DNA of 10,605 nt from Deltaproteobacteria bacterium. GTDB taxonomy: Bacteria > Desulfobacterota_B > Binatia > UBA9968. The stretch is taken from the NCBI GenBank assembly GCA_016193385.1, contig JACPSF010000453.1, positions 1-10,605 on the forward strand, in the 5' to 3' direction. Within the stretch, counting starts at the first letter, position 1; each line of letters begins with the position of its first letter. The translations under genes and the position numbers were made by a program. The notes under the pieces were generated by a model. That model saw only the letters and a program-made list of their open reading frames with translations. It searched no databases and was not told where the DNA came from. Shown here piece after piece: positions 2,142 through 10,605 of the stretch.

Positions 2142-3122
2142 ATGTTGCTCACGGCTGGCTTGGGACTTTCAATAGGGATTCCACTCGGAGTGGCGATTCA
2201 GCGAGGCGGTTTTTGCATGCATAGCGCCTTTCGCCAAATTCTTCGGGGTGAGCGATCCTCATCATTCCTTGCCTATCTGTTAGCTTTGGGATGTCAACTG
2301 CTTTTCGTGAATATCCTGGCAGCGGGCCGGCTCCTCGTTGTTCCGCTTCCTCCATTGACCTGGTTGGCTGCTACGGTGGGCGGGCTCATGTTTGGTTTTG
2401 GAATGGTATGGGCCAAGGGCTGAGCGACTTCCATCTGGTCTCGGGTCGGGACCGGGAATCTTGGCGCTGGGACCGCGGTATTTGGATTTGCCATTGGGGG
2501 GCTCCTCGCATCAGAGGGTCTTCTCCGTTTCCTTACCTTGCAGCTTAGCCGTCCGGTGTTGTCTCTTCCAGGTGCAGCTTCGCTTCCCACGCTTTTGGGT
2601 GTGAGCCAAGTCTGGGTTATTGCAGCGGGCGTTTTCTTAGTCGGTTTTCTGCTGTGGGCCCTTCCAAGACCCTCCGTTACATTAGAGAGTTGGCCTTGGT
2701 ACTATACGGGCCTAGCGGTTGGGTTTTTAGGTACACTAGCTTGGCTTTTAGGGGCGCCATCCGGATGGCACTGGGGGTTGTCAATGACAGGGCCGAGCCG
2801 CACTCTTATGGGGGTGCTTGTGGACTCAGCTGACCATCCGATGACCTGGGGAGCGTTCATGCTTCTCGGTGTTCCTTTTGGATCGTGGCTAAGCGCGCGC
2901 GCAAGCGGCACCGCCCGCTGGCAGTTGCCAGAGGCTCCTGAACTTCCTCGCCGATTTCTGGGAGGCTTGCTCATGGGGTTTGGCGGAACCGTGGCGGGCG
3001 GGTGCAACATCGGCAATGCATTGACCGGTCTTTCCATCCTCTCTCTAAACAGCCTGGTGGCTACGGGTAGTATTCTACTGGGCTTGGCCCTGGCAGTTCG
3101 AGTGCAGGAACTTCACCGTTGA
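2142..3122 (+). CDS. YeeE/YedE-family sulfur/selenium transporter, selenoprotein (Sec94), copy 1
   Basis: The gene is read through an in-frame TGA at 2421-2423 to give 326 residues. Upstream of it is a membrane protein N-terminus (RGGFC, Cys25; LALGCQL, Cys51) ending 'MFGFGMVWAKG'. The frame continues unchanged after TGA as 'ATSIWSRVGTGNLGAG' and ends with 'GFGGTVAGGCNIGNALTG' (Cys288), the second hallmark of the family. YeeE/YedE proteins normally have cysteine in the first motif (GGCATG-like), so TGA replaces a conserved transport cysteine. In thiosulfate permease TsuA, conserved intramembrane cysteines contact the substrate. Sec94 and Cys288 fit two of these by motif and approximate position. 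A SECIS-like hairpin follows, and copy 2 has TGA at the same codon. Start: ATG after AAGG at 2133-2136. The substrate could be thiosulfate or a selenium/sulfur species (inference). A caller treating TGA as stop would give two fragments. Confidence 0.9.
2435..2455 (+). promoter_or_regulatory. Bacterial SECIS-like stem-loop of yeeE copy 1
   Basis: GGTCTC-GGGTC-GGGACC forms a 6-bp stem (one T-G wobble) extended by C-G and T-G pairs, with a GGGUC loop starting 20 nt after the TGA at 2421-2423. Guanines at the start of a small apical loop 15-25 nt from UGA are what SelB-dependent SECIS elements need. The E. coli fdhF loop also contains GGUC. Confidence 0.82.
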
Positions 3123-3173
3123 GGCAAGGGTAAGTTCGATGTTTTTTAGAATATCGGGAACTTTTACCCTGCC
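3123..3173. repeat. Long imperfect inverted repeat between yeeE copy 1 and the NPC-repeat gene
   Basis: Arm GGCAAGGGTAAGTTC (3123-3137) pairs with GAACTTTTACCCTGCC (3158-3173), apart from one bulged A and an AA insertion. About 14 base pairs enclose a 20-nt AT-rich loop containing TTTTTT. It starts just after the yeeE stop and ends about 40 nt before the ribosome binding site of the next gene. It may be an mRNA-stabilising or attenuating hairpin. It lacks the clean T-run of a simple terminator, although TTGGTTTTAT follows. Confidence 0.45.
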
Positions 3174-3226
3174 AATTTGGTTTTATCGACATCTAAACCA
3201 CAATTTGCGGGAAAAAGGAGGATTTT

Positions 3227-3457
3227 GTGAGGAAAAGGTTTGTTCGTTTTGTCCCGGCCCTAGTCGCTTCGGCATTCTTGCTAGCCCCCGGCCTGTCCTT
3301 TGCCCAGGCGAACCCCTGTGTGGCCAAGAATCCTTGTGCAGCGCAATCGGATAAAAATCCCACAAAGGGACAGGCTGCCAAGGGGACAAAAAAGGGAGAA
3401 AACCCTTGCGCAGCCAATCCGTGTGCCGCCAAAAACCCCTGCGCGGCAAAGAAGTAG
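3227..3457 (+). CDS. Small secreted Cys-rich protein with NPCAAK repeats
   Basis: 76 residues starting with GTG, 5 nt after a strong AAGGAGG ribosome binding site. A classical signal peptide (RKRFVRFVPALVASAFLLAPGLSFA, cut after AFA/AQA near residue 27) is followed by a low-complexity mature chain. This carries five NPC motifs (NPCVAK, NPCAAQ, NPCAAN, NPCAAK, NPCAAK) separated by Lys-rich linkers. Mature cysteines occur only in these motifs. Regularly spaced periplasmic thiols suggest metal or metalloid (or selenium/sulfur) binding, or a redox sink, but no named family is recognised and this is inference. It sits alone between yeeE copy 1 and a terminator, probably co-transcribed with yeeE. 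Alternative-frame ORFs on the minus strand here are shadows of the repeat. Confidence 0.8.
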   Translation: MRKRFVRFVPALVASAFLLAPGLSFAQANPCVAKNPCAAQSDKNPTKGQAAKGTKKGENPCAANPCAAKNPCAAKK

Positions 3458-3477
3458 CAGGCGGGCCCATTTCTGCA

Positions 3478-3518
3478 GGAAGTCGGATGGAGTTTCCACC
3501 TGACTTCCACCTCTTTTA
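3478..3518 (+). terminator. Intrinsic terminator after the NPC-repeat gene
   Basis: GGAAGTC (3478-3484) pairs with GACTTCC (3502-3508). An inner TGGA-GTT-TCCA hairpin lies between them, and the structure is followed by ACCTCTTTTAT. The position 20 nt after the TAG stop fits transcription ending before the radical SAM operon. Confidence 0.6.
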
Positions 3519-3580
3519 TACCTTCCCACAGAGCGATTCACTTTAGGTGACCGTGATAGGGTTGAGGAGTTGGCATCGAG

Positions 3581-3610
3581 TTGAGCGGTGGTCTCCTTTT
3601 GAGTTAAGAT
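3581..3610 (+). promoter_or_regulatory. Possible promoter of the radical SAM operon
   Basis: TTGAGC (3581-3586) and TAAGAT (3605-3610) each match four of six sigma-70 positions with an 18-bp spacer, downstream of the terminator. A GCTCTC-N7-GAGAGC hairpin (3618-3636) just after it would lie in the leader and contains an AGGAGAG purine run. Weak matches, listed because a new transcript must start in this gap. Confidence 0.25.
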
Positions 3611-3700
3611 TCGTCGGGCTCTCGCCACAGGAGAGCGGATAGGAAGTGACTTATACCAGCAGAGCCGCAAAAAGATGAGGCCGATTCCATCTTTTTTGAC

Positions 3701-5065
3701 TTGGTGAGAAGCCTTTGTCCGGAGTGCCGGAAATTGCTGGACGCGCAGGTCCTGATCCGCGACAACAAAGTCTTCATGCGGAAGCGCTGTCCTGATCACG
3801 GCTTGTTCGAGGGACTGATCTACAGTGACGCCGGGATGTTTGCCAGTGCCCTGCGTTACAACAAGCCTGGAAGTATCCCGCTTGAATTCAGCACACAAGT
3901 CAAAGATGGTTGCCCATTCGACTGCGGTCTCTGCCCGGACCACAAGCAGCATGCCTGCCTCGGCATCATCGAGGTCAACACGGCTTGCAACCTCGACTGT
4001 CCGGTTTGCTTTGCCAACGCCGGTCCGGGCTACAATCTGACACTTGGCGAGGTAGAAAGGATGTTGGACCGCTTCGTTGAGTGCGAAGGGACTGGGGAGG
4101 TCATTCAGTTTTCAGGCGGAGAGCCTTCGATCCACCCCGAGATAGTCCCGATGCTTCGGGCGGCGAAACGCCGACCCATCAAGCATGTTATGCTCAATAC
4201 CAACGGCGTTCGGATCGCAACGGACGATCGATTTCTGGCTGAGCTGGCCGAGATCAGGCCAACGATTTATATGCAGTTCGATGGGCTGTCGCCGCAGACC
4301 TCGCTGGCGCTGCGGGGCGAAAGTTTGGTTGAAACAAAGCTCTTGGCACTAGACCGGCTAGCATCGGTTGACTTGAACGCAGTTTTAGTCGCAGCTACTG
4401 AACGGGATATTAACGAACATGAGATTGGCCCGCTTCTGAACTTTGGTTTGGATCATCCTGCGGTCCGAGGGATTGTTTATCAACCGGTGACCCACACAGG
4501 TCGCCATCCCAAGTTTGATCCCCTCCGGCGGACGACGATCCCGGACGTGATCAAAGCGATCGAGATGCAGACCTCTGGCCGGTTTGTCGTTCAGGACTTC
4601 GTCCCGGTCCCCTGCTGCTTTCCAACCTGCACCTCGGTCACATATGCGTATGTGGAAGATGGGAAGGTAACACCGCTGCCGCGGGTTTTGGATGTGAAGG
4701 ACTATCTCGATTACCTCACCAATCGGACAGTTCCAGACCTCTCTCAGGAGATCCAGAAGGCGCTCGAAGGACTCTGGTCTGCGTCAGCGGTCCCGGGAAC
4801 GGAGGCCGCCGGAGAGCTGCTCGGGAATGCGTGTTGTAACCTGGACCTGCCGGCGCTCGGCAGGGATCTTGCCAGCCGCTTTTTCATGGTGATGGTCAAA
4901 GACTTTATGGATCTCTACACCTTCAACCTTAAGAGCCTGATGAAGTGCTGCGTGGAGGTCCTCGTACCAGACGGCCGGATGATTCCCTTTTGTGCGTACA
5001 ACACGGTTGGCTACCGAGAGCAGGTCCGGGAGCAATTGCGGACCCGAACGGGGGCGGGGCGGTGA
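3701..5065 (+). CDS. Radical SAM protein of the Tes/MJ0619-like family
   Basis: 454 residues from the TTG called here. Order of elements: N-terminal CPEC (6-9) and 'RKRCPDHG', a CPFDCGLC cluster (71-78), then the radical SAM motif 'TACNLDCPVCF' with Cys96, 100 and 103 (CX3CX2C) binding the SAM [4Fe-4S] cluster. 'FSGGEPSIHPE' is the SAM-binding GGE motif, followed by 'LNTNGVRI' and 'YMQFDG'. The C-terminal half has further cysteines (PVPCCFPTC, GNACCNL, LMKCCVEV, MIPFC) suited to auxiliary iron-sulfur clusters. This architecture is that of the methyltransferase-like MJ0619 group that includes archaeal tetraether synthase Tes. The bacterial members' substrates are largely unknown, and the context suggests a metal, metalloid or lipid modification. 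The TTG lacks a ribosome binding site. The frame is open from 3650, and an out-of-frame ATG at 3675 would join after a shift in the T6 run at 3692-3697, so the true start is uncertain. Confidence 0.85.
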   Translation: MVRSLCPECRKLLDAQVLIRDNKVFMRKRCPDHGLFEGLIYSDAGMFASALRYNKPGSIPLEFSTQVKDGCPFDCGLCPDHKQHACLGIIEVNTACNLDCPVCFANAGPGYNLTLGEVERMLDRFVECEGTGEVIQFSGGEPSIHPEIVPMLRAAKRRPIKHVMLNTNGVRIATDDRFLAELAEIRPTIYMQFDGLSPQTSLALRGESLVETKLLALDRLASVDLNAVLVAATERDINEHEIGPLLNFGLDHPAVRGIVYQPVTHTGRHPKFDPLRRTTIPDVIKAIEMQTSGRFVVQDFVPVPCCFPTCTSVTYAYVEDGKVTPLPRVLDVKDYLDYLTNRTVPDLSQEIQKALEGLWSASAVPGTEAAGELLGNACCNLDLPALGRDLASRFFMVMVKDFMDLYTFNLKSLMKCCVEVLVPDGRMIPFCAYNTVGYREQVREQLRTRTGAGR

Positions 5066-5871
5066 GCGACAAGATCCTGAGCGACATCAAGCCCTGCTGT
5101 GCCGACCTGTATGCGAAGCCGGTGGTAGCATGGCTGCTAGGCGATTCGTTGCATCCCGGCGGACTTGCTCTGACGCAGCGGTTAGGGCGAATGCTCAAGC
5201 TAACACCATCTGACCGGGCGCTAGATATTGCCTGTGGCAGTGGGGCAAGTGCAATGTTATTGGCGGGACAGTTTGGATGCAGAGTTACAGGAGTAGATCT
5301 TGCTCCGCTCCTGGTTTCTGGCGCTCGCGCTGCTGCGAGCCGGGAGAAGCTTGAGTGGGTTTTGGGGTTTGCACTTGGTGATGCCGAGGCGTTGCCCTTT
5401 CGAGAGGCTTCTTTTGATGCAGTGGTTTCCGAGTGTGCTACTTCGACCTTTTTGGATAAGGGTGCCGCGGCGCGTGAGATGGCCAGGGTCCTCAAGCCAG
5501 GGGGACGACTAGGATTGACTGATATGTTGCTGACCCGCGGGGAAGTTCCGGAGGCATTTCGAGGGTGGCCGTTCCAGGCGGCATGCATCGCCGATGTCTG
5601 GCCGGCTGGGAAATATCAAGAGGTTTTTTCGTCCGCAGGTTTCTCCAACTGGCGGATAGAAAAGGTACCCGAGGCCCTGACCGAGCTTTTAAACCAGATA
5701 CGAGCGCGCCTCTTGGCGTTGGAAGTGGCGGGGGGCCTTCAGAAACTTGATCTGTCTTGCTACGATCTCGCTGCCGTAAAACAAGCCCTCAGCACCGTAG
5801 AGCGATGGGTCAACTCCGGAGGGTTGAGCTACGGGATCTTGTTCGCATTGAGGGAGGTTCGGCATGGCTAA
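5062..5871 (+). CDS. Class I SAM-dependent methyltransferase (ArsM-like)
   Basis: 269 residues. The GTG start at 5062 overlaps the TGA of the radical SAM gene (GTGA), with a G-rich ribosome binding site inside that gene, so translation is coupled. Upstream in-frame ATGs lie inside the radical SAM gene and are not needed. Rossmann features are present: motif I 'ALDIACGSGASAMLL' (residues 53-67), acidic 'VTGVDLA', 'GDAEALPFREASFDAVVSE' and 'REMARVLKPGGRLGLTDML'. The N-terminus 'DIKPCCADLYAKP' has a Cys pair at 12-13 and 'GDSLHPGG', typical of a group often annotated as arsenite-methyltransferase-like. The full ArsM cysteine set is not obvious. It probably transfers a methyl group to a thiophilic element or to the radical SAM product. 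The substrate is inference. Confidence 0.85.
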   Translation: MSDKILSDIKPCCADLYAKPVVAWLLGDSLHPGGLALTQRLGRMLKLTPSDRALDIACGSGASAMLLAGQFGCRVTGVDLAPLLVSGARAAASREKLEWVLGFALGDAEALPFREASFDAVVSECATSTFLDKGAAAREMARVLKPGGRLGLTDMLLTRGEVPEAFRGWPFQAACIADVWPAGKYQEVFSSAGFSNWRIEKVPEALTELLNQIRARLLALEVAGGLQKLDLSCYDLAAVKQALSTVERWVNSGGLSYGILFALREVRHG

Positions 5872-5968
5872 ACCGCGCTTTCATGTCTGACCCGGCCCAT
5901 GGGCACTGCTCCTGGTAGGAGTGTTCTTGGGAGTGGCATGGCTGATTGTCCCTTGGCTCGGTTTCTGA
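5864..5968 (+). CDS. Candidate selenocysteine-containing membrane micropeptide (34 aa, Sec9)
   Basis: ATG at 5864 overlaps the end of the methyltransferase and follows GGGAGG (5852-5857) by 6 nt, the best ribosome binding site in the operon. The frame meets TGA at 5888-5890 after only eight codons (MAKPRFHV). It then continues as PGPW plus one clean hydrophobic segment (ALLLVGVFLGVAWLIVPWLGF) and stops at TGA 5966-5968, two nt before the MerT-like gene's GGGAG. A hairpin with a UGGUA loop lies where a SECIS belongs. Together these point to a real 34-residue single-span peptide with Sec at residue 9 just before the membrane. No family is recognised. The predicted role, such as handing a selenol- or thiol-bound ligand to the MerT-like partner, is speculative. 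Without recoding, only an 8-residue peptide is made. Confidence 0.6.
5907..5923 (+). promoter_or_regulatory. Bacterial SECIS-like stem-loop of the micropeptide gene
   Basis: TGCTCC-TGGTA-GGAGTG forms a 6-bp stem (two wobble pairs at the base) with a UGGUA loop starting 23 nt after the TGA at 5888-5890. Weaker than the yeeE and OsmC hairpins but with GG-U in the apical loop and correct spacing. Confidence 0.55.
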
Positions 5969-5981
5969 AGGGAGTAGGCTA

Positions 5982-6347
5982 ATGGGTGAAAAAGACTTCA
6001 AACAAGGCTCCCAAAGATTTGGGATCGGGCTTGGACTTCTCTCTGGCCTCGTGGGCATGCTCTGTTGCGTCACGCCGGCAGTGCTGGTCCTTTTTAGCTT
6101 GACCACAGCGACGGCCGCAGTCAGCCTCGCCACCAGGTGGTACACTGAATACGCGTGGTATCTTCGGGGCGCCGCAGCGCTCCTGGCGATAGCGGGGATT
6201 GTGCTCCACCTCAGAAGGCGTAATGCCTGCTCTCTACGCGGTGCGCAGGCGAACCTCAGCCTCATCGTGACGACTGCCGTCGTCGGTGTCCTGGCCTACG
6301 GTGCCCTCTACTGGATCACAACCTGGCTCGGGACCTTGGCTCGATAA
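5982..6347 (+). CDS. MerT-like small membrane transporter
   Basis: 121 residues from ATG, 7 nt after GGGAG. An in-frame TTG at 5946 would overlap the micropeptide and has no ribosome binding site. Three membrane spans: 'GLGLLSGLVGMLCCVTPAVLVLFSL', 'YLRGAAALLAIAGIVLHL' and 'LSLIVTTAVVGVLAYGALYWI'. The vicinal Cys pair (Cys26-Cys27) in span 1 followed by a proline is the mercuric-ion-binding signature of MerT, and the length matches MerT (about 116). The second MerT cysteine pair in the cytoplasmic loop is absent; a single Cys occurs in 'RRNACSL'. No merP, merA or MerR-type gene is nearby, so moving Hg(II) is not assured. Another soft metal or a thiophilic metalloid handled by the upstream enzymes is equally possible. 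The gene ends TAATGA. Confidence 0.75.
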   Translation: MGEKDFKQGSQRFGIGLGLLSGLVGMLCCVTPAVLVLFSLTTATAAVSLATRWYTEYAWYLRGAAALLAIAGIVLHLRRRNACSLRGAQANLSLIVTTAVVGVLAYGALYWITTWLGTLAR

Positions 6348-6439
6348 TGACCTGGCCTCAGGCGTGATATTTTCTTTTTACTTTAACTACGGCAATTGAA
6401 TGGGCGGGGCCCTTGGAATAGAGCACGGAGGTACGACCC

Positions 6440-6559
6440 ATGGAGAAGAAGGTCGTTGTCTATAGCCAGCCCGGCTGAATGTTCTGCAACCGGGTGAAAG
6501 AGTTTCTTTCGCAAAAGGGAACTCTTAACCTTCGAAGACAGTTCTTATTGGAAAATGGC
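6440..6559 (+). pseudogene. Truncated selenocysteine glutaredoxin, in frame with yeeE copy 2
   Basis: ATG at 6440 has a GGAGG (6427-6431) 8 nt upstream. It encodes MEKKVVVYSQPG, then TGA (6476-6478), then MFCNRVKEFLSQKG. This is the start of a glutaredoxin: beta-strand 1 plus the active site, normally CxxC, here UxxC with Sec13 and Cys16. A SECIS-like hairpin follows. After about 27 codons the glutaredoxin similarity ends (TLNLRRQFLLENG), far short of the usual 75-85 residues. The frame runs without a stop into the ATG of yeeE copy 2 at 6560. Either a glutaredoxin gene was cut by a rearrangement that placed yeeE behind it, or a 366-residue double-Sec fusion (Sec13, Sec134) is made. The fragment lacks the rest of the thioredoxin fold, so independent activity is unlikely. 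Confidence 0.7.
6494..6512 (+). promoter_or_regulatory. Bacterial SECIS-like stem-loop of the glutaredoxin fragment
   Basis: GTGAAAG-AGTTT-CTTTCGC gives a 7-bp stem (one T-G wobble) with an AGUUU loop starting 23 nt after the TGA at 6476-6478. It has been kept although the rest of the gene is lost, because the element lies within the first codons after UGA. Confidence 0.6.
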
Positions 6560-7540
6560 ATGCTTCTGACAGCCACTCTTGGACTGATTGTCGGTACCCC
6601 CCTCGGATTCGTCATCCAGCGGGGAAGTTTCTGCATGCACAGCGGCTTCCGCCAAACCCTCGGAGGCGAGCCATCCTCGTCGTTTCTCGCCTATCTGCTG
6701 GCTCTTGGGTGTCAACTGCTTTTCGTGAATTCCCTGGCCGCGGCTCATCTCGTCGTTGTTCCGATTCCTCCGTTGACGTGGCTGGCTGCCATCATAGGCG
6801 GGCTCATGTTCGGTTTTGGAATGGTATGGGCTAAGGGCTGAGCAACCTCCGTCTGGTCCCGGGTCGGGACCGGAAACCTTGGTGCAGCCATCGCAGTGTT
6901 GGGGTTTGCCATCGGTGGGTTGCTTGCGGCACAAGGGCTCTTTCGTTTCCTTACCGTATTGTTGACCCGCCCGGTCGTTTCGTTCTCCGGTGCGGCTTCT
7001 CTTCCCACGTTATTTGGCTTGAGCCGGGTGTGGATTATTGGGGGAAGTATTGGCTTAGTCGGATTCTTGCTGTGGAGTCTCCCAAAGCCTGCAACGGCTC
7101 GTGGGAATTGGTCCTGGCACCAGACTGGCTTCGTGCTAGGGGTGCTCGGCACACTGGCGTGGGTGCTAGGCGCGCCGGCGGGCTGGCACTGGGGATTGTC
7201 GATGACAGGACCGAGCCGCACGCTTATGGGGGTGCTTGTGGACTCAGGTGACCATCCGATGACCTGGGGAGCGTTCATGCTTCTCGGTGTTCCCTTTGGA
7301 TCATGGCTAAGCGCACGCTCTAGAGGCACCGCCCGCTGGCAGTTGCCGGAAGCCCCTGAACTTCCGCGCCGATTTCTGGGAGGCTTGCTCATGGGATTTG
7401 GCGGAACCGTGGCGGGCGGGTGCAACATCGGCAATGCATTGACGGGTGTTTCCATCCTCTCTCTAAACAGCCTGATGGCTACGGGCAGCATTCTACTGGG
7501 CTTGGCCGTGGCAGTTCGAGTGCAGGAATTTCACCGTTGA
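6560..7540 (+). CDS. YeeE/YedE-family sulfur/selenium transporter, selenoprotein (Sec94), copy 2
   Basis: From ATG 6560 through the in-frame TGA at 6839-6841 to TGA at 7538-7540 this is 326 codons, exactly the length of copy 1, which fixes the start. It keeps RGSFC (Cys25), LALGCQL (Cys51), 'MFGFGMVWAKG' before Sec94, 'ATSVWSRVGTGNLGAA' after it and 'GGTVAGGCNIGNALTG' (Cys288). The N-terminal half has diverged from copy 1 in many codons. The last third is almost identical at DNA level, suggesting recent gene conversion. The ribosome binding site next to ATG 6560 is weak, so translation may be coupled to the glutaredoxin fragment upstream, which is in frame. It has the same transport role and the same uncertainty about substrate as copy 1. 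Two intact copies with the same TGA argue strongly against a nonsense mutation. Confidence 0.9.
6853..6873 (+). promoter_or_regulatory. Bacterial SECIS-like stem-loop of yeeE copy 2
   Basis: GGTCCC-GGGTC-GGGACC is a perfect 6-bp stem plus C-G and T-G outer pairs, loop GGGUC starting 20 nt after the TGA. Compared with copy 1 the only change in the stem is a T-G wobble becoming C-G, so pairing and loop are preserved while flanking codons changed (e.g. GCG ACT to GCA ACC). Confidence 0.85.
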
Positions 7541-7547
7541 GGGAAAA

Positions 7548-7658
7548 GTGGCCGACATGGTGTCCAGGTCAACGGGCGTGAAGCCGACGAAAGCGCCAGC
7601 AGACTATACGGATCTTACGTTCCTGAAAAAGGTTCTTCAGGACTTGGGCAAAAGGTAA
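7548..7658 (+). pseudogene. Possible C-terminal remnant of a solute-binding protein
   Basis: A 36-codon frame beginning at GTG and ending TAA reads VADMVSRSTGVKPTKAPADYTDLTFLKKVLQDLGKR in two halves: 'STGVKPTKAPADY' and 'TDLTFLKKVLQDLGKR'. The pattern of a proline-rich linker followed by an amphipathic final helix ending in basic residues is typical of the C-terminus of NMT1-like binding proteins, such as those at either end of this window. No upstream part is present, so if the reading is right it is a decayed leftover. Judged by eye only. Confidence 0.3.
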
Positions 7659-7662
7659 CGGG

Positions 7663-7770
7663 TTGCATGTCGAGGATCTCGGCGACTGGACAACCGGAAA
7701 TGCTTTAACCGGACGATCGACCCTTTCGATGGATAGCTTTATTGGCTGTCACGAACGTGGTTCCGGTTGA
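7663..7770 (+). pseudogene. Possible remnant of a third YeeE-like gene
   Basis: In one frame (TGA stop at 7768-7770) the DNA encodes 'TTGNALTGRSTLSMDSFIGC' (7690-7749). This resembles the C-terminal motif of the two intact yeeE copies (CNIGNALTG-SILSLNSL). The residue at the expected Cys position is Trp (TGG at 7687-7689), and nothing membrane-like precedes it. It is best read as a degraded fragment of a related transporter. Confidence 0.4.
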
Positions 7771-7815
7771 CACTGAATGGGCTATTTGACAGTTGTGATG
7801 GAAGGAGGCCGCGCC

Positions 7816-8766
7816 ATGAAATTTATTTTAGTCGCCCCAATTTTTCTCGTCACGCTGTCGTTCACGAGTCCGCCGGTTCCCGCGCAAGAAAGAATGCGTG
7901 TCGGCTTAACTTCGCTGGCTCCCACGACCCTTCCGGTCTGGGTCGCCAAACGGCAGGGCTATTTCAAAGATGAAAATCTGTTTGTTGAGCCGATCGTCTT
8001 TACCAGCGGGACCATCAATTCACAGGCGGCGCTGGCTGGAGAAATTGATATCGCCCTCGGCTCCGGCGCGGAGGTTTTTACCATCCGACTCGCTGGTGAG
8101 GACGCGCGGTTTTTCTTTGGCATATCCAATTTTATGCCTTTCAAACTTTACGTTAATCCAGCCATCAAGACCCCTCAGGACTTGAAAGGAAAAAAATTAG
8201 CCGTCAGTCGTTTTGGAGCGCAGTCTGACTTTCTCACGCGCTATGCGCTCTCCAAATTACGGCTGGATCCGTCGAAAGATGTGACCATTCTACAAATCGG
8301 CTCGACGCCTGCCCGTTATGCCGCGCTGAAAAGCGGCAGCGTGGACGGAACCATTGTGTGGTTTCCTGTGACCCTGATCGCGGCTAACGAGGGCTACCGC
8401 ATGCTCGCCGATCTCAACGACATCATCTCCGATTGGCCTTATCTCGGCTATTACGCGATGGCTAGCGTGCTCAGAGAAAAGCGGGGTAAAGTCACGCGCT
8501 ATCTCAGAGCGCACGTCAAAGCCCTGGAGTGGCTGAAGGCCAATCCTCCGGGAGGCGCCAAGGTGCTCGTCGAAGACGTGAAGATTGCTCCTGCTTACGC
8601 GGAAGCCGGCTACAAGGAGTTCATGAAGTCCTTCACCTTCGACGGCAGGATCCCCGTCAAGGGCTTCGAGCTCCTCATGGAATCCGAGGCAACCAAACTC
8701 AAGGGGAAATTCAAAGTCGCAGATTTCATTGATCAAAGCTTCCACAAACAGTTCGCTAAAAACTGA
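7816..8766 (+). CDS. NMT1/SsuA-like ABC transporter substrate-binding protein
   Basis: 316 residues. ATG 7816 is chosen because GGAGG (7804-7808) lies 7 nt upstream and a signal peptide begins there (MKFILVAPIFLVTLSFTSPPVPAQ, cut near PAQ-E). An in-frame ATG at 7777 would add 13 residues before the signal. The mature part starts 'RMRVGLTSLAPTTLPVWVAKRQGYFKDENLFVEPI', standard for the family. It continues with 'EIDIALGSGAEV', 'TPQDLKGKKLAVSRFGAQSDFLTRYAL' and 'ARYAALKSGSVDGTIV'. It differs in sequence from the binding protein at the left edge, so it is a second family member rather than a duplicate. No permease is nearby. The ligand is unknown; aromatic, sulfonate or taurine-like compounds are usual for the family. 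It leads an operon with the peroxiredoxin-like and GST genes (28-bp gap). Confidence 0.87.
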   Translation: MKFILVAPIFLVTLSFTSPPVPAQERMRVGLTSLAPTTLPVWVAKRQGYFKDENLFVEPIVFTSGTINSQAALAGEIDIALGSGAEVFTIRLAGEDARFFFGISNFMPFKLYVNPAIKTPQDLKGKKLAVSRFGAQSDFLTRYALSKLRLDPSKDVTILQIGSTPARYAALKSGSVDGTIVWFPVTLIAANEGYRMLADLNDIISDWPYLGYYAMASVLREKRGKVTRYLRAHVKALEWLKANPPGGAKVLVEDVKIAPAYAEAGYKEFMKSFTFDGRIPVKGFELLMESEATKLKGKFKVADFIDQSFHKQFAKN

Positions 8767-8794
8767 TGCTCATCGCCGGTAGGAAGGAGGAAGC

Positions 8795-9286
8795 ATGGCA
8801 AAGCAGCTAAACGTTGGCGATCTTTTTCCAGAATATGAAGTCCAAGCCGCTGATGGCCGGACGCTTGATCTCCCTCAGGATCTCACAGGTGAGTATTCCG
8901 TTCTCATCTTTTACCGCGGTGGCTGGTGACCTTACTGCAATCGGCAGTTGGCCGATTTCGAGTCCCATATTGAGGAATTCAAAACGGAGAATGTGGATGT
9001 CGTAGCTCTTTCCGTAGACCCCTTGGACAAGGCCAAGGAGACCGTCGACAAATTGAAGCTTACGTTTCCCGTGGCCTATGGGCTTGAAGTGCCGAGAGAT
9101 GCGGACAAGATAGGCGCCTTTTGGGATGGAGGGAGGAAGTTCATCCACGCCACGAATTTCGTTTTGGATTCGGATAAAAAAGTAGTTGATGCCTCTTATA
9201 GCACTGGGCCCATCGGCCGCATCCTCGCAGCCGACGCGCTAAGTCACATCCAGTTTTTTAAAAGACGAAAGGCACAGGAGATCTAA
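8795..9286 (+). CDS. Peroxiredoxin-like selenoprotein with UxxC active site (Sec45)
   Basis: 163 residues when read through TGA at 8927-8929. The first 44 residues, MAKQLNVGDLFPEYEVQAAD then GRTLDLPQDLTGEYSVLIFY and RGGW, are an AhpC/TSA-type thioredoxin-fold start. TGA then takes the place of the first cysteine of the W-CxxC motif (RGGW-U-PYCNRQL; Sec45, Cys48). The fold continues with 'DFESHIEEFKTENVDVVALSVDPLDKA', 'FPVAYGL', 'NFVLDSDKKVV'. The enzyme should reduce peroxides or act as a thiol-disulfide reductase with selenocysteine as the attacking residue and Cys48 resolving. UxxC peroxiredoxin-like selenoproteins are known in bacteria. GGAAGGAGG precedes ATG 8795. The TAA stop is 2 bp before the GST gene. 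An annotation starting inside the gene (e.g. 8948) has missed the TGA. Confidence 0.9.
8939..8957 (+). promoter_or_regulatory. Bacterial SECIS-like stem-loop of the peroxiredoxin-like gene
   Basis: AATCGGC-AGTTG-GCCGATT is a perfect 7-bp stem with an AGUUG loop, starting 17 nt after the TGA. It is built into the codons for NRQLADF. Confidence 0.8.
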
Positions 9287-9288
9287 TC

Positions 9289-9894
9289 ATGGCCATTAAG
9301 TTATACGACGCGGTGCCGTCATCCAACTGTGATCGGGTAAAGATTGTGCTGCACGAGAAAGGGCTCGCCTACGAAACCGTCAGGATCGACTTGCACAGGA
9401 GGGAGCACAAGAACCCTGAGTTCCTAAAGCTCAACCCGTACGGAAAGGTGCCGGTAATCGTCGATGAGGAGAAAGTGCTTTTTGAATCCTGCATCATCAA
9501 CGAATACCTAGACGAGAAATATCCGAATCCTCCCTTAATGCCGAACGATCCCTACGCCAGAGGACGGAGCCGCGTCCTGATCGATTATGGATTGAATTAC
9601 ATGCACGCTCCTTATTGGGCGCTCCGCGGCGAGATGCTCAAGGAGGAACCGGATCGCGATCGGGCAGTTATCGAAGAGAAGCGTCAGACCTTGAGAGACC
9701 TTCTCCAGTACCTTGAGGTCGAGATCGGCGACAAGCCTTACCTCATGGGTGAAATTAGCCTGGCCGACATTGCCCTGGTGACGCGATTCTTCCGCATGGA
9801 ATCGTACGGCGCTCTTCCGGCGCCTTCTTTGCCGCGGCTCGGAGCCTGGTTGCAGCGGATGAAGGCGCGTCAGTCAGTCAGATCGATCCTGTGA
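9289..9894 (+). CDS. Glutathione S-transferase family protein
   Basis: 201 residues, ATG 2 bp after the peroxiredoxin stop with GGAG about 8 nt upstream. The N-terminal thioredoxin-like domain has 'MAIKLYDAVPSSNCDRVKIVLHEKGLAYE', the cis-proline motif 'YGKVPVIVDE' and the glutathione-contacting 'LFESCIINEYLDEKYP'. The all-helical C-terminal domain ends in the N-capping motif 'ISLADIALVTRFF'. The residue in the catalytic region is Ser-Ser-Asn-Cys, so a Ser- or Cys-type (beta/omega or SspA-like) activity is likely rather than Tyr-type. Co-transcribed with a selenoperoxiredoxin, it plausibly supplies or recycles glutathione for that enzyme, or detoxifies electrophiles. No recoded TGA is found, and the gene ends at TGA 9892. 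Confidence 0.9.
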   Translation: MAIKLYDAVPSSNCDRVKIVLHEKGLAYETVRIDLHRREHKNPEFLKLNPYGKVPVIVDEEKVLFESCIINEYLDEKYPNPPLMPNDPYARGRSRVLIDYGLNYMHAPYWALRGEMLKEEPDRDRAVIEEKRQTLRDLLQYLEVEIGDKPYLMGEISLADIALVTRFFRMESYGALPAPSLPRLGAWLQRMKARQSVRSIL

Positions 9895-10224
9895 AAGGGC
9901 AAACGTGTTGCATGATTCATCTCGACCTTTGGCAATCTTGATGCGCAGGGGTACACACCGACTCAGCGCAAGTCATCGAAGACGGCGCTCGGGTGAGAAA
10001 GCCATCCAAGATTATTTTAACGCTAGAGGCCATGTTCCCTATGCCACGGATGCCGAAAAGGCTGGCCAAAGTTTTCACCTGGAGAGCGCTGGCGCGCCTC
10101 TCGGGACTTGAATTCGCGCCAGCTTGACAACCACGGGTCCGCATGCATGATCGTCGGCACAAGTTGCGGCCGGGGTCATCAGCGCGAGACGAGCGAGCCG
10201 GAAAGAGAGAAAAGAAAGAAAAGG
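9895..10224. other. Intergenic region between convergent GST and OsmC genes
   Basis: About 330 bp with no supported gene. It contains a 9-bp perfect inverted repeat, GCTGGCGCG (10088-10096) and CGCGCCAGC (10115-10123), around an 18-nt loop. Just after the OsmC stop on the minus strand there is a pyrimidine tract (10201-10224). Both could help end transcription between the convergent genes, though neither is a classic T-tailed terminator. A 71-codon frame with an internal TGA at 9939 exists but has no ribosome binding site, SECIS or recognised motif. Confidence 0.5.
10088..10123. repeat. Inverted repeat GCTGGCGCG / CGCGCCAGC
   Basis: Nine-base-pair perfect arms separated by 18 nt lie between convergent genes. 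This is consistent with a bidirectional, Rho-assisted end of transcription or a protein site. No T-run follows on either strand. Confidence 0.4.
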
Positions 10225-10605
10225 TCAATCCAGCTTGAGCGGCCTGCCGTTCAACTTTACAGTGGTTGTTACCGGCACCGGATTGACCAGCGACTGAAGT
10301 GCGAAACAAGTTTGCTCTCCCATTTTGATCAAATGGCGGACCTTCTCCTCCGGCTCATCCGATTCAACTTCGATTTCCGATTCAAGCCCCAGAGGGCCGC
10401 CTCGCAACGTGCCAGCCAGAGCCGATCCCTTCATGAAAAACCGTGTGACTTGTTTGATCCGGATAGACTTGACGTTGAGCTTCGTGACTTTCCCGAACCG
10501 GGAAAGCTGCGTGAGCATTCAGAAGGCGATGCCGGCACTGAAATAGGCCAGCGGGGGCGGCGCTGGGTCTTCCCCGGCGAGATAGGCTCCCTCGTCGCAG
10601 ATGAT
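10225..10605 (-). CDS. OsmC-like peroxide reductase, selenoprotein, 5' end outside the window
   Basis: The minus-strand frame enters at the right edge and reads IICDEGAYLAGEDPAPPPLA then YFSAGIAF. It meets TGA at 10521-10519, continues MLTQLSRFGKVTKLNVKSI and ends at TGA 10227-10225. The C-terminal half, with 'IEVESDEPEEKVRHLIKMGEQTCFALQSLVNPVPVT' split over two strands of the fold, is diagnostic of OsmC/Ohr-like proteins. In E. coli OsmC the peroxidatic cysteine follows 'PxxLxxAAxxGC', and the TGA here sits at that place. The resolving cysteine is preserved in 'GEQTCFAL'. The protein should reduce organic hydroperoxides with selenocysteine as the attacking residue. An excellent SECIS-like hairpin follows. 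A caller blind to recoding would start a 97-residue ORF at ATG 10518 and lose the catalytic residue. The N-terminus is not in the window. Confidence 0.87.
10488..10506 (-). promoter_or_regulatory. Bacterial SECIS-like stem-loop of the OsmC-like gene
   Basis: On the minus strand CTTTCCC-GGTTC-GGGAAAG is a perfect 7-bp stem with a GGUUC loop starting 20 nt after the TGA, the same offset as both yeeE elements. The loop begins with GG-U, as favoured by SelB. Confidence 0.83.

Follow-up and report, generated by a model that had tools for sequence, protein, structure and literature searches.

The window examined here (the whole 10,605-nucleotide (nt) stretch of contig JACPSF010000453.1, from an uncultured bacterium filed under the Deltaproteobacteria and placed in the Binatia) carries, from left to right, a fragment resembling a substrate-binding protein (recognized by eye), a gene for an FGE-domain protein on the minus strand, a first gene for a YeeE/TsuA-family membrane transporter (YeeE1), and genes for an NPCAA-repeat protein, a radical SAM protein, a methyltransferase and a tiny product of 34 codons. 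These are followed by a small membrane protein gene, a glutaredoxin (Grx) stump in frame with a second transporter of the same family (YeeE2), and genes for a substrate-binding protein, a peroxiredoxin-like (Prx) protein, a glutathione S-transferase-like protein and, on the minus strand, an OsmC-like protein. Six internal TGA codons are spread over five open frames, the Grx stump and YeeE2 sharing a common one. We hold with high confidence that this is a selenoprotein gene cluster, in which six in-frame UGAs, each followed by a hairpin of the selenocysteine insertion sequence (SECIS) type, are predicted to be decoded as selenocysteine (Sec). Judged from its sequence, the cluster would consist mostly of families already known as selenoproteins (YeeE, Prx, Grx and OsmC; PMC13188914), together with one likely new, tiny family.

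YeeE1 (2142..3122, plus strand; 326 residues; PF04143, 213.6 bits) has its UGA at 2421-2423 (Sec94) and a hairpin with a 9-bp stem at 2434-2456. The small gene (5864..5968, plus strand), with GGGAGG 5' of its ATG, specifies 34 residues with one hydrophobic stretch; its UGA lies at 5888-5890 (Sec9) and its hairpin at 5907-5923. The Grx stump (6440..6520, plus strand) is the N-terminal 27 residues of a glutaredoxin with a UMFC motif (UGA 6476-6478, hairpin 6494-6512; PF00462 at 24.3 bits against a cut-off of 22.9), and YeeE2 (6560..7540, plus strand; PF04143, 209.3 bits) has its UGA at 6839-6841 and its hairpin at 6852-6874. The AhpC/TSA-type Prx-like protein (8795..9286, plus strand) reads UPYC at the site (UGA 8927-8929, hairpin 8939-8957). 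The OsmC-like gene (10225..10605, minus strand) is cut by the window end, with its 5' end beyond it; it reads UMLT, with the UGA at 10519-10521 (first base at 10521 on the minus strand) and the hairpin at 10487-10507.

The hairpins are alike in build. Their loops are GGGUC in YeeE1 and YeeE2, UGGUA in the small gene, AGUUU in Grx, AGUUG in Prx and GGUUC in OsmC, and the first loop base is nt 17, 20 or 23 past the TGA, which puts all six in one codon phase. A sequence-only reading of this DNA had described them in these terms; its loops, offsets and common phase stand, and only the uninterrupted stems, given there as 6-8 bp, in fact run from 6 to 9 bp. Under a rule that demands a 5-nt loop of the form NG[G/U]NN (a pattern taken from PMC13188914), an uninterrupted stem of at least 6 bp and 16-22 nt ahead of the loop, a hairpin follows 6/6 candidate TGAs and 2/334 other TGAs of the window (Fisher 1.4e-11), in agreement with the claim that each of the six is so equipped. 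Hairpins may have partly guided the choice of candidates in that reading; a cysteine (Cys) at the site in relatives gives five of the six independent backing. In 753 kb of collected loci, NGKUN hairpins of at least 6 bp occur at 29 of 22,591 TGAs, some of which are real Sec sites. The bacterial SECIS model in the legend of Fig. 2 of PMC13188914 has an apical loop of 3-9 nt with a G in the first two positions, lying 16-37 nt past the UGA on a stem of 4-16 bp, and a minimum free energy of at most -7.5 kcal/mol. All six hairpins can form this geometry, and as isolated 5-nt-loop hairpins those of YeeE2 (-15.7 kcal/mol), YeeE1 (-11.8), OsmC (-10.7) and Prx (-8.7) pass the published energy. The 45 nt 3' of the six TGAs fold at -10.6 to -23.3 kcal/mol, with modest z-scores of -0.99 to -3.31.

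The common codon phase also appears at the rule-found hairpins of real Sec sites in relatives, except in a SelD-like gene. As a law it fails: besides that exception, 35 of the 69 NGKUN hairpins (at least 6 bp) in coding DNA of the relative G002 are already in phase. The phase is thus only a hint, part of which the coding background accounts for. A Prx-like gene at L206:13720-14358 reads FYRGYWUAKC with its TGA present and no hairpin of the rule; hence, the rule misses some Sec sites.

That open reading runs across six TGAs could also mean that TGA is read as an amino acid everywhere, under a reassigned code. This we regard as practically excluded: TGA is the terminal stop of eight window genes (the sequence-only reading had counted at least seven), none of which has such a hairpin, so a global code change is out, and 332 of the 334 other TGAs likewise have none.

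The YeeE site carries most of the comparative evidence. A single scan over GTDB contigs turned up a relative at 49 loci, to which the two window genes were added. At the site in question the 49 loci have TGA in six, TGC or TGT in 41, and one masked and one uncalled position, with TAA or TAG in none; with both window genes the count is eight TGA and 41 Cys codons at 49 readable sites. The six TGA relatives come from groundwater 'Deltaproteobacteria' (L001, L002), a Rokubacterium (L003) and Methylomirabilota (L012, L031, L036). The hairpin tracks the TGA: at -5 kcal/mol it is present in 8/8 TGA genes versus 3/41 Cys genes (P 3.7e-7), and at -7.5 kcal/mol in 6/8 versus 0/41. Its stem is 100% paired in the eight sequences and differs in sequence between two clades, with three pairs changed on both sides, a covariation that essentially reflects a single split in the tree. 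The ratio of non-synonymous to synonymous rates (dN/dS) before and after the TGA is 0.14 and 0.19 for YeeE1-YeeE2, 0.18 and 0.14 for YeeE1-L001, and 0.17 and 0.18 for YeeE1-L002; the pair with L003 is saturated. In an alignment with the Spirochaeta thermophila thiosulfate transporter TsuA (6leo), U94 falls on Cys91, C24 with Cys22 and C288 with Cys293, which are respectively the second, third and first cysteines of the TsuA relay (PMC11073785), Cys91 and Cys293 being described as indispensable (PMC11582611).

The other families repeat this pattern. The Prx has an 84% identical TGA-bearing gene in G002 and more distant ones in G003 and G001; counted by place, with duplicate loci merged, the site is TGA in four relatives and Cys in four, the Cys forms being more distant, thioredoxin-like relatives. 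Against its L106 counterpart, dN/dS is 0.09 before and 0.13 after the TGA, and purifying selection thus acts on both sides of the TGA in YeeE and Prx alike. OsmC relatives with one TGA occur in G001 and G002, and a distant G001 copy has TGT; by place, again with duplicates merged, the count is three TGA and one Cys. At the Grx site a Cys stands in the L001 alignment. An alignment with Cys homologues, proposed as a check by the sequence-only reading, therefore gives TGA 8 and TGC/TGT 41 for YeeE and finds Cys at the Prx, OsmC and Grx sites. Replacement of a conserved Cys, asserted there for five families, holds for these four; of the small peptide no Cys form was found in the genomes searched. 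Its glutaredoxin, too, is confirmed as to the UxxC start and the hairpin, and shrinks to a mere stump: only positions 1-23 of the 60-position PF00462 profile are matched, short of a complete Grx domain, and by eye no frame 3' of the stump resembles the rest. One of the six TGA sites hence lies in a truncated gene.

If the TGAs were instead ordinary stops, the YeeE genes would be split into two separately translated halves, in the manner of PmpA/PmpB, or would be decaying pseudogenes. Split YeeE-type transporters are on record (PMC11582611), the adjoining glutaredoxin is truncated, and the 31 best protein matches span no more than 58-67% of the YeeE1 query; the 15 of them that were aligned are all C-terminal pieces. 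Such pieces, however, are the expected output of gene callers for an unrecognized Sec gene. Further, the interrupting codon is TGA in 8/8 YeeE genes and sits at the Cys position, the hairpin tracks the Sec forms, dN/dS is low on both sides of it, and the same layout of TGA plus hairpin recurs in the unrelated Prx, OsmC and small-peptide genes of relatives. Splitting or decay is on these grounds very improbable, and Sec decoding is the reading we retain.

YeeE2 is 80% identical to YeeE1 as a protein and may be read as a fusion starting at 6440, with the Grx stump in frame. The two genes are most alike in their 3' part, where 54-58 of 60 nt are identical in each of the last five full blocks. The Grx-YeeE2 junction (window 6440-6560) looks like a scar of duplication or recombination.

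The small gene has relatives of its own. A search with the window peptide matched an open frame of 25 residues in G002 over residues 10-33 only (E 0.0023); in this copy (L109) the codon directly ahead of the matched frame is TGA, followed by the hairpin CUCCUGGUAGGAG, and AGGAGG precedes the ATG. A profile of the window and G002 copies recovered two more copies on one contig of G612 (L126), both with TGA, hairpin and AGGAGG, which brings the family to four copies of 34-35 residues in three genomes, the window included. The TGA is at the same place and the hairpin core CUCCUGGU[A/G]GGAG is common to the window, G002 and G612 copies; the shared residues are U, PW, LLVG, W-L and W, part of LLVG being encoded by the hairpin itself. 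Across the four copies 95.8% of the stem cells are paired, and as no pair has changed at both of its positions, covariation lends this hairpin no support. For L109 compared with the first of the G612 copies, dN/dS is 0.12 over the 9 codons ahead of the TGA and 0.13 over the 25 codons that follow it. The search covered 148 genomes of the class, with real copies in two, 95 from the phylum of G003, with none, and 395 from that of G002, with a copy in G002 alone (in many genomes of this last set only part of the candidates was scored). Two weaker matches of the window-peptide search (E 0.07 and 0.43) were dropped; from the profile search of the class, the G002 match and two on contig 225 of G612 were kept and the other 11 listed set aside as noise on their tabulated features alone (partial model, long frame or TAG), as were two matches in the phylum of G003 and three, G002 itself apart, in that of G002. 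A plasmid search with one G612 copy returned none. On viral contigs only one match was confirmed; it belongs to a different protein, and the 40 codons preceding it are free of stops.

None of the four copies falls into a Pfam family or matches an NCBIfam model over its cut-off. Our literature search found no paper on such a peptide; Haft and Tolstoy 2025 lay outside that search and may already describe it, and in the table of PMC13188914 no entry among those credited to that work has a similar name. The neighbours of the gene differ between genomes, the window copy sitting between the methyltransferase and the Mer-like membrane protein. We predict that the peptide is likely a new single-pass membrane selenoprotein. 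We further lean towards the view that it founds a Sec-only family of tiny membrane selenoproteins, which would have been missed by methods built on Cys/Sec pairs, such as deep-Sep, on account of a gene too short for callers and broken by UGA and of the lack of a Cys homologue; it may serve as the selenol of a membrane complex handling metal(loid)s or sulfur in this selenoprotein island.

The machinery for Sec insertion is present in relatives. In ten genomes of related loci, SelB scores over its cut-off in seven and the tRNA-Sec in five, and SelA does so in 7/9. G002 has selA, selB and a tRNA-Sec (78.8 bits) over cut-off, with selB adjoining a TGA-containing gene that is SelD-like by its AIRS domain rather than by a SelD-model score, and the same genome bears TGA forms of YeeE, Prx, OsmC and the small peptide. 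The Sec decoding proposed by the sequence-only reading hence gains support from Cys replacement, hairpins, covariation, purifying selection past the TGA, and Sec machinery in relatives with the same TGA genes.

Several points weigh on the other side. The machinery is known here from the genomes of relatives and not from that of the window's host. G001 has TGA-bearing YeeE, OsmC and Prx-like genes, yet SelA is unlisted there and SelB (189.7 bits, cut-off 242) and tRNA-Sec (45.8, cut-off 47) fall short, for which an incomplete bin could be one reason. The tRNA-Sec model also passes in 5/14 control genomes, so weak hits mean little. Two isolated hairpins, those of the small gene (-4.8 kcal/mol) and Grx (-6.0), do not reach the published -7.5; the window's small gene folds at lowest energy into a hairpin of different register, with a loop that breaks the G rule, and when 45 nt are folded, the NGKUN hairpin comes out lowest in energy for 2/4 small-gene copies. 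The small gene of the window has diverged too far for a dN/dS comparison, and the OsmC values are near saturation. Finally, no YeeD/TsuB partner was recognized among the window genes examined.

Between the two transporters, the radical SAM protein (3701..5065, plus strand; PF04055, PF23545) has an HMPTM zinc ribbon and no internal TGA, and is related to TrsS and Tes (NF045646). The class I methyltransferase gene overlapping it (5062..5871, plus strand) is related to the DVU_1556 (NF045667) and ArsM families. This pair recurs in L096/L099: in the Methylomirabilota genome G005 it is 72% (radical SAM) and 46% (methyltransferase; 149.6 bits for NF045667, cut-off 155) identical and is followed by a MerE-domain gene, which stands in the place of the window's small membrane protein. 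A more distant pair occurs in six other loci (L074, L077, L078, L080, L085, L094), and at a threshold of E 1e-60 G002 itself gave no radical SAM match. Upstream of the G005 pair, L099:774-1376 holds a TlpA-like gene reading FWATWUPFC, with TGA and a matching hairpin. The small membrane protein itself (5982..6347, plus strand) has a CC-x-x-P pair and is Mer-transporter-like by inspection only, matching no Pfam family at cut-off and NCBIfam MerTP at E 0.073. The small, likely secreted NPCAA-repeat protein (3227..3457, plus strand), possibly a metal-binding cysteine-rich protein, is 59% identical to a counterpart beside the Sec-YeeE of L001 (L001:2816-3088), and a similar sequence lies on contig 239 of G002 (L148:7600-8019). 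Downstream lie the NMT1/THI5-like substrate-binding protein (7816..8766, plus strand; PF13379, PF09084) and the glutathione S-transferase-like protein (9289..9894, plus strand; PF02798, 81.7 bits). A tRNA search found no tRNA gene in the window, and the one sub-threshold match of an Rfam scan is taken as chance.

The window holds six predicted Sec sites in 8.1 kb; 1.06 Mb of G002, taken by contig number, holds at least three clear Sec genes (a lower bound). Against this sampled relative, the claim that the clustering far exceeds the usual scatter is borne out. A scan for SECIS plus coding potential over 1.14 Mb of G002 together with L002 and L127 gave 14 candidates, of which five were set aside as noise and nine accepted as real: YeeE, Prx, two OsmC, two AhpD-like, two deiodinase-like and the SelD-like gene (six checked against Pfam, YeeE and the second OsmC by other comparisons, the second AhpD-like by likeness only). 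Contig 239 of G002 (L148, 227-5176), chosen for its Prx, has Prx-U and two deiodinase-like U genes in 4.4 kb, next to FGE and NPCAA genes that resemble the window's own, and the unchosen G002 sample has two Sec genes 0.7 kb apart. Contig 30 (L161, 4151-5267) holds two AhpD-like genes with CxxU and hairpins at a spacing of 0.7 kb. Dense selenoprotein groups thus recur in the lineage with changing content. Whether they form functional units is a separate matter, and we put the chance that the selenoproteins are real and their grouping an accident of a selenoprotein-rich genome and a YeeE duplication at somewhat short of even. The genes lie on both strands with gaps (OsmC opposite to the rest of the Sec genes), YeeE2 closely copies YeeE1, above all towards the 3' end, and G002 has its Prx, OsmC, YeeE and small-peptide genes on different contigs, its Sec clusters being small and of other make-up. 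Against such an accident, an NPCAA gene is again found close to Sec genes in L001 and on contig 239 of G002, where an FGE gene is present as well. In addition, the longest contig given for either of two database proteins, P0008 (YeeE) and P0128 (methyltransferase), measures 5307 bases, which may point to a second linked copy.

Returning to the cluster as a set of selenoproteins, SelB would bind the G[G/U] loop of each hairpin and deliver Sec-tRNA at the UGA. The two YeeE proteins likely import thiosulfate or a similar oxyanion of sulfane sulfur (or selenium), the middle cysteine of the relay being replaced by Sec. Their relative in L031 points to thiosulfate or sulfane-sulfur import by its neighbours: two pyridoxal phosphate-dependent cysteine-synthase-like enzymes, ThiS-ThiF, a rhodanese, a JAB-domain protein, two proteins with sulfite/nitrite-reductase domains and TauE. 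Those of L012 and L036 are much the same by eye; L001 and L002 have ArsM-like (below cut-off) and ArsS (over cut-off) genes in their loci instead, and no such sulfur operon is seen in the window, for whose YeeEs this substrate is inferred. Reduction of peroxides or related oxidants is the likely role of the Prx-like and OsmC-like proteins, and a soft metal or metalloid is probably handled by the radical SAM and methyltransferase pair together with the adjoining Mer-like membrane protein. If this picture is right, an uncultured bacterium has, in one 8-kb locus, five selenoprotein genes, of which one is incomplete at the end of the window, plus a stump; Sec in place of Cys91 is a natural experiment on the thiosulfate relay, and very small Sec-only membrane proteins can escape both annotation and Cys-homology methods. 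The YeeE set (eight Sec and 41 Cys forms) offers a clean test bed for hairpin requirements. The apparent novelty lies in the 34-35-residue peptide, with its conserved UGA and hairpin.

Among known systems, TrsS radical SAM (seleno)proteins and DVU_1556-type methyltransferases (NCBIfam names) have their match in the adjoining genes of related families in the window, which score below the cut-offs (339.2 versus 490 and 136.1 versus 155 bits), the radical SAM gene lacking a TGA. Selenoprotein neighbourhoods with several selenoprotein genes close together are reportedly the subject of Haft and Tolstoy 2025, going by its title, and by that title alone the window is alike in having several Sec genes close together. 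YeeE and OsmC are not among the entries credited to that work in the table of PMC13188914. The window Prx agrees with the peroxiredoxin-like UxxC selenoproteins in its AhpC-TSA domain (PF00578 at 81.5 bits, cut-off 26) and its UPYC, and the window OsmC with the OsmC-related selenoproteins of NF041052 (OsmC_like_Se; 157.6 bits, cut-off 95) in score and in the UxxT form of its UMLT, with no notable difference in either case. The Sec-containing YeeE/YedE proteins (PF04143; Table 1 of PMC13188914) share with those of the window the domain, Sec at the middle relay cysteine and the SECIS hairpin. The motif printed there is GUxSG; L012 and L031 (GUASG) and L036 (GUGSG) conform to it, whereas GUATS, the sequence in the window as well as in L001, L002 and L003, falls outside it, and the window further differs in carrying two copies, one in frame with a Grx stump. 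Measured against TsuA itself (6leo, NF052577), the window YeeEs score 142.6 and 145.7 bits, below the equivalog cut-off of 400, and stand without a YeeD among the genes examined; yet all three relay positions are conserved, with Sec in the place of the middle Cys.

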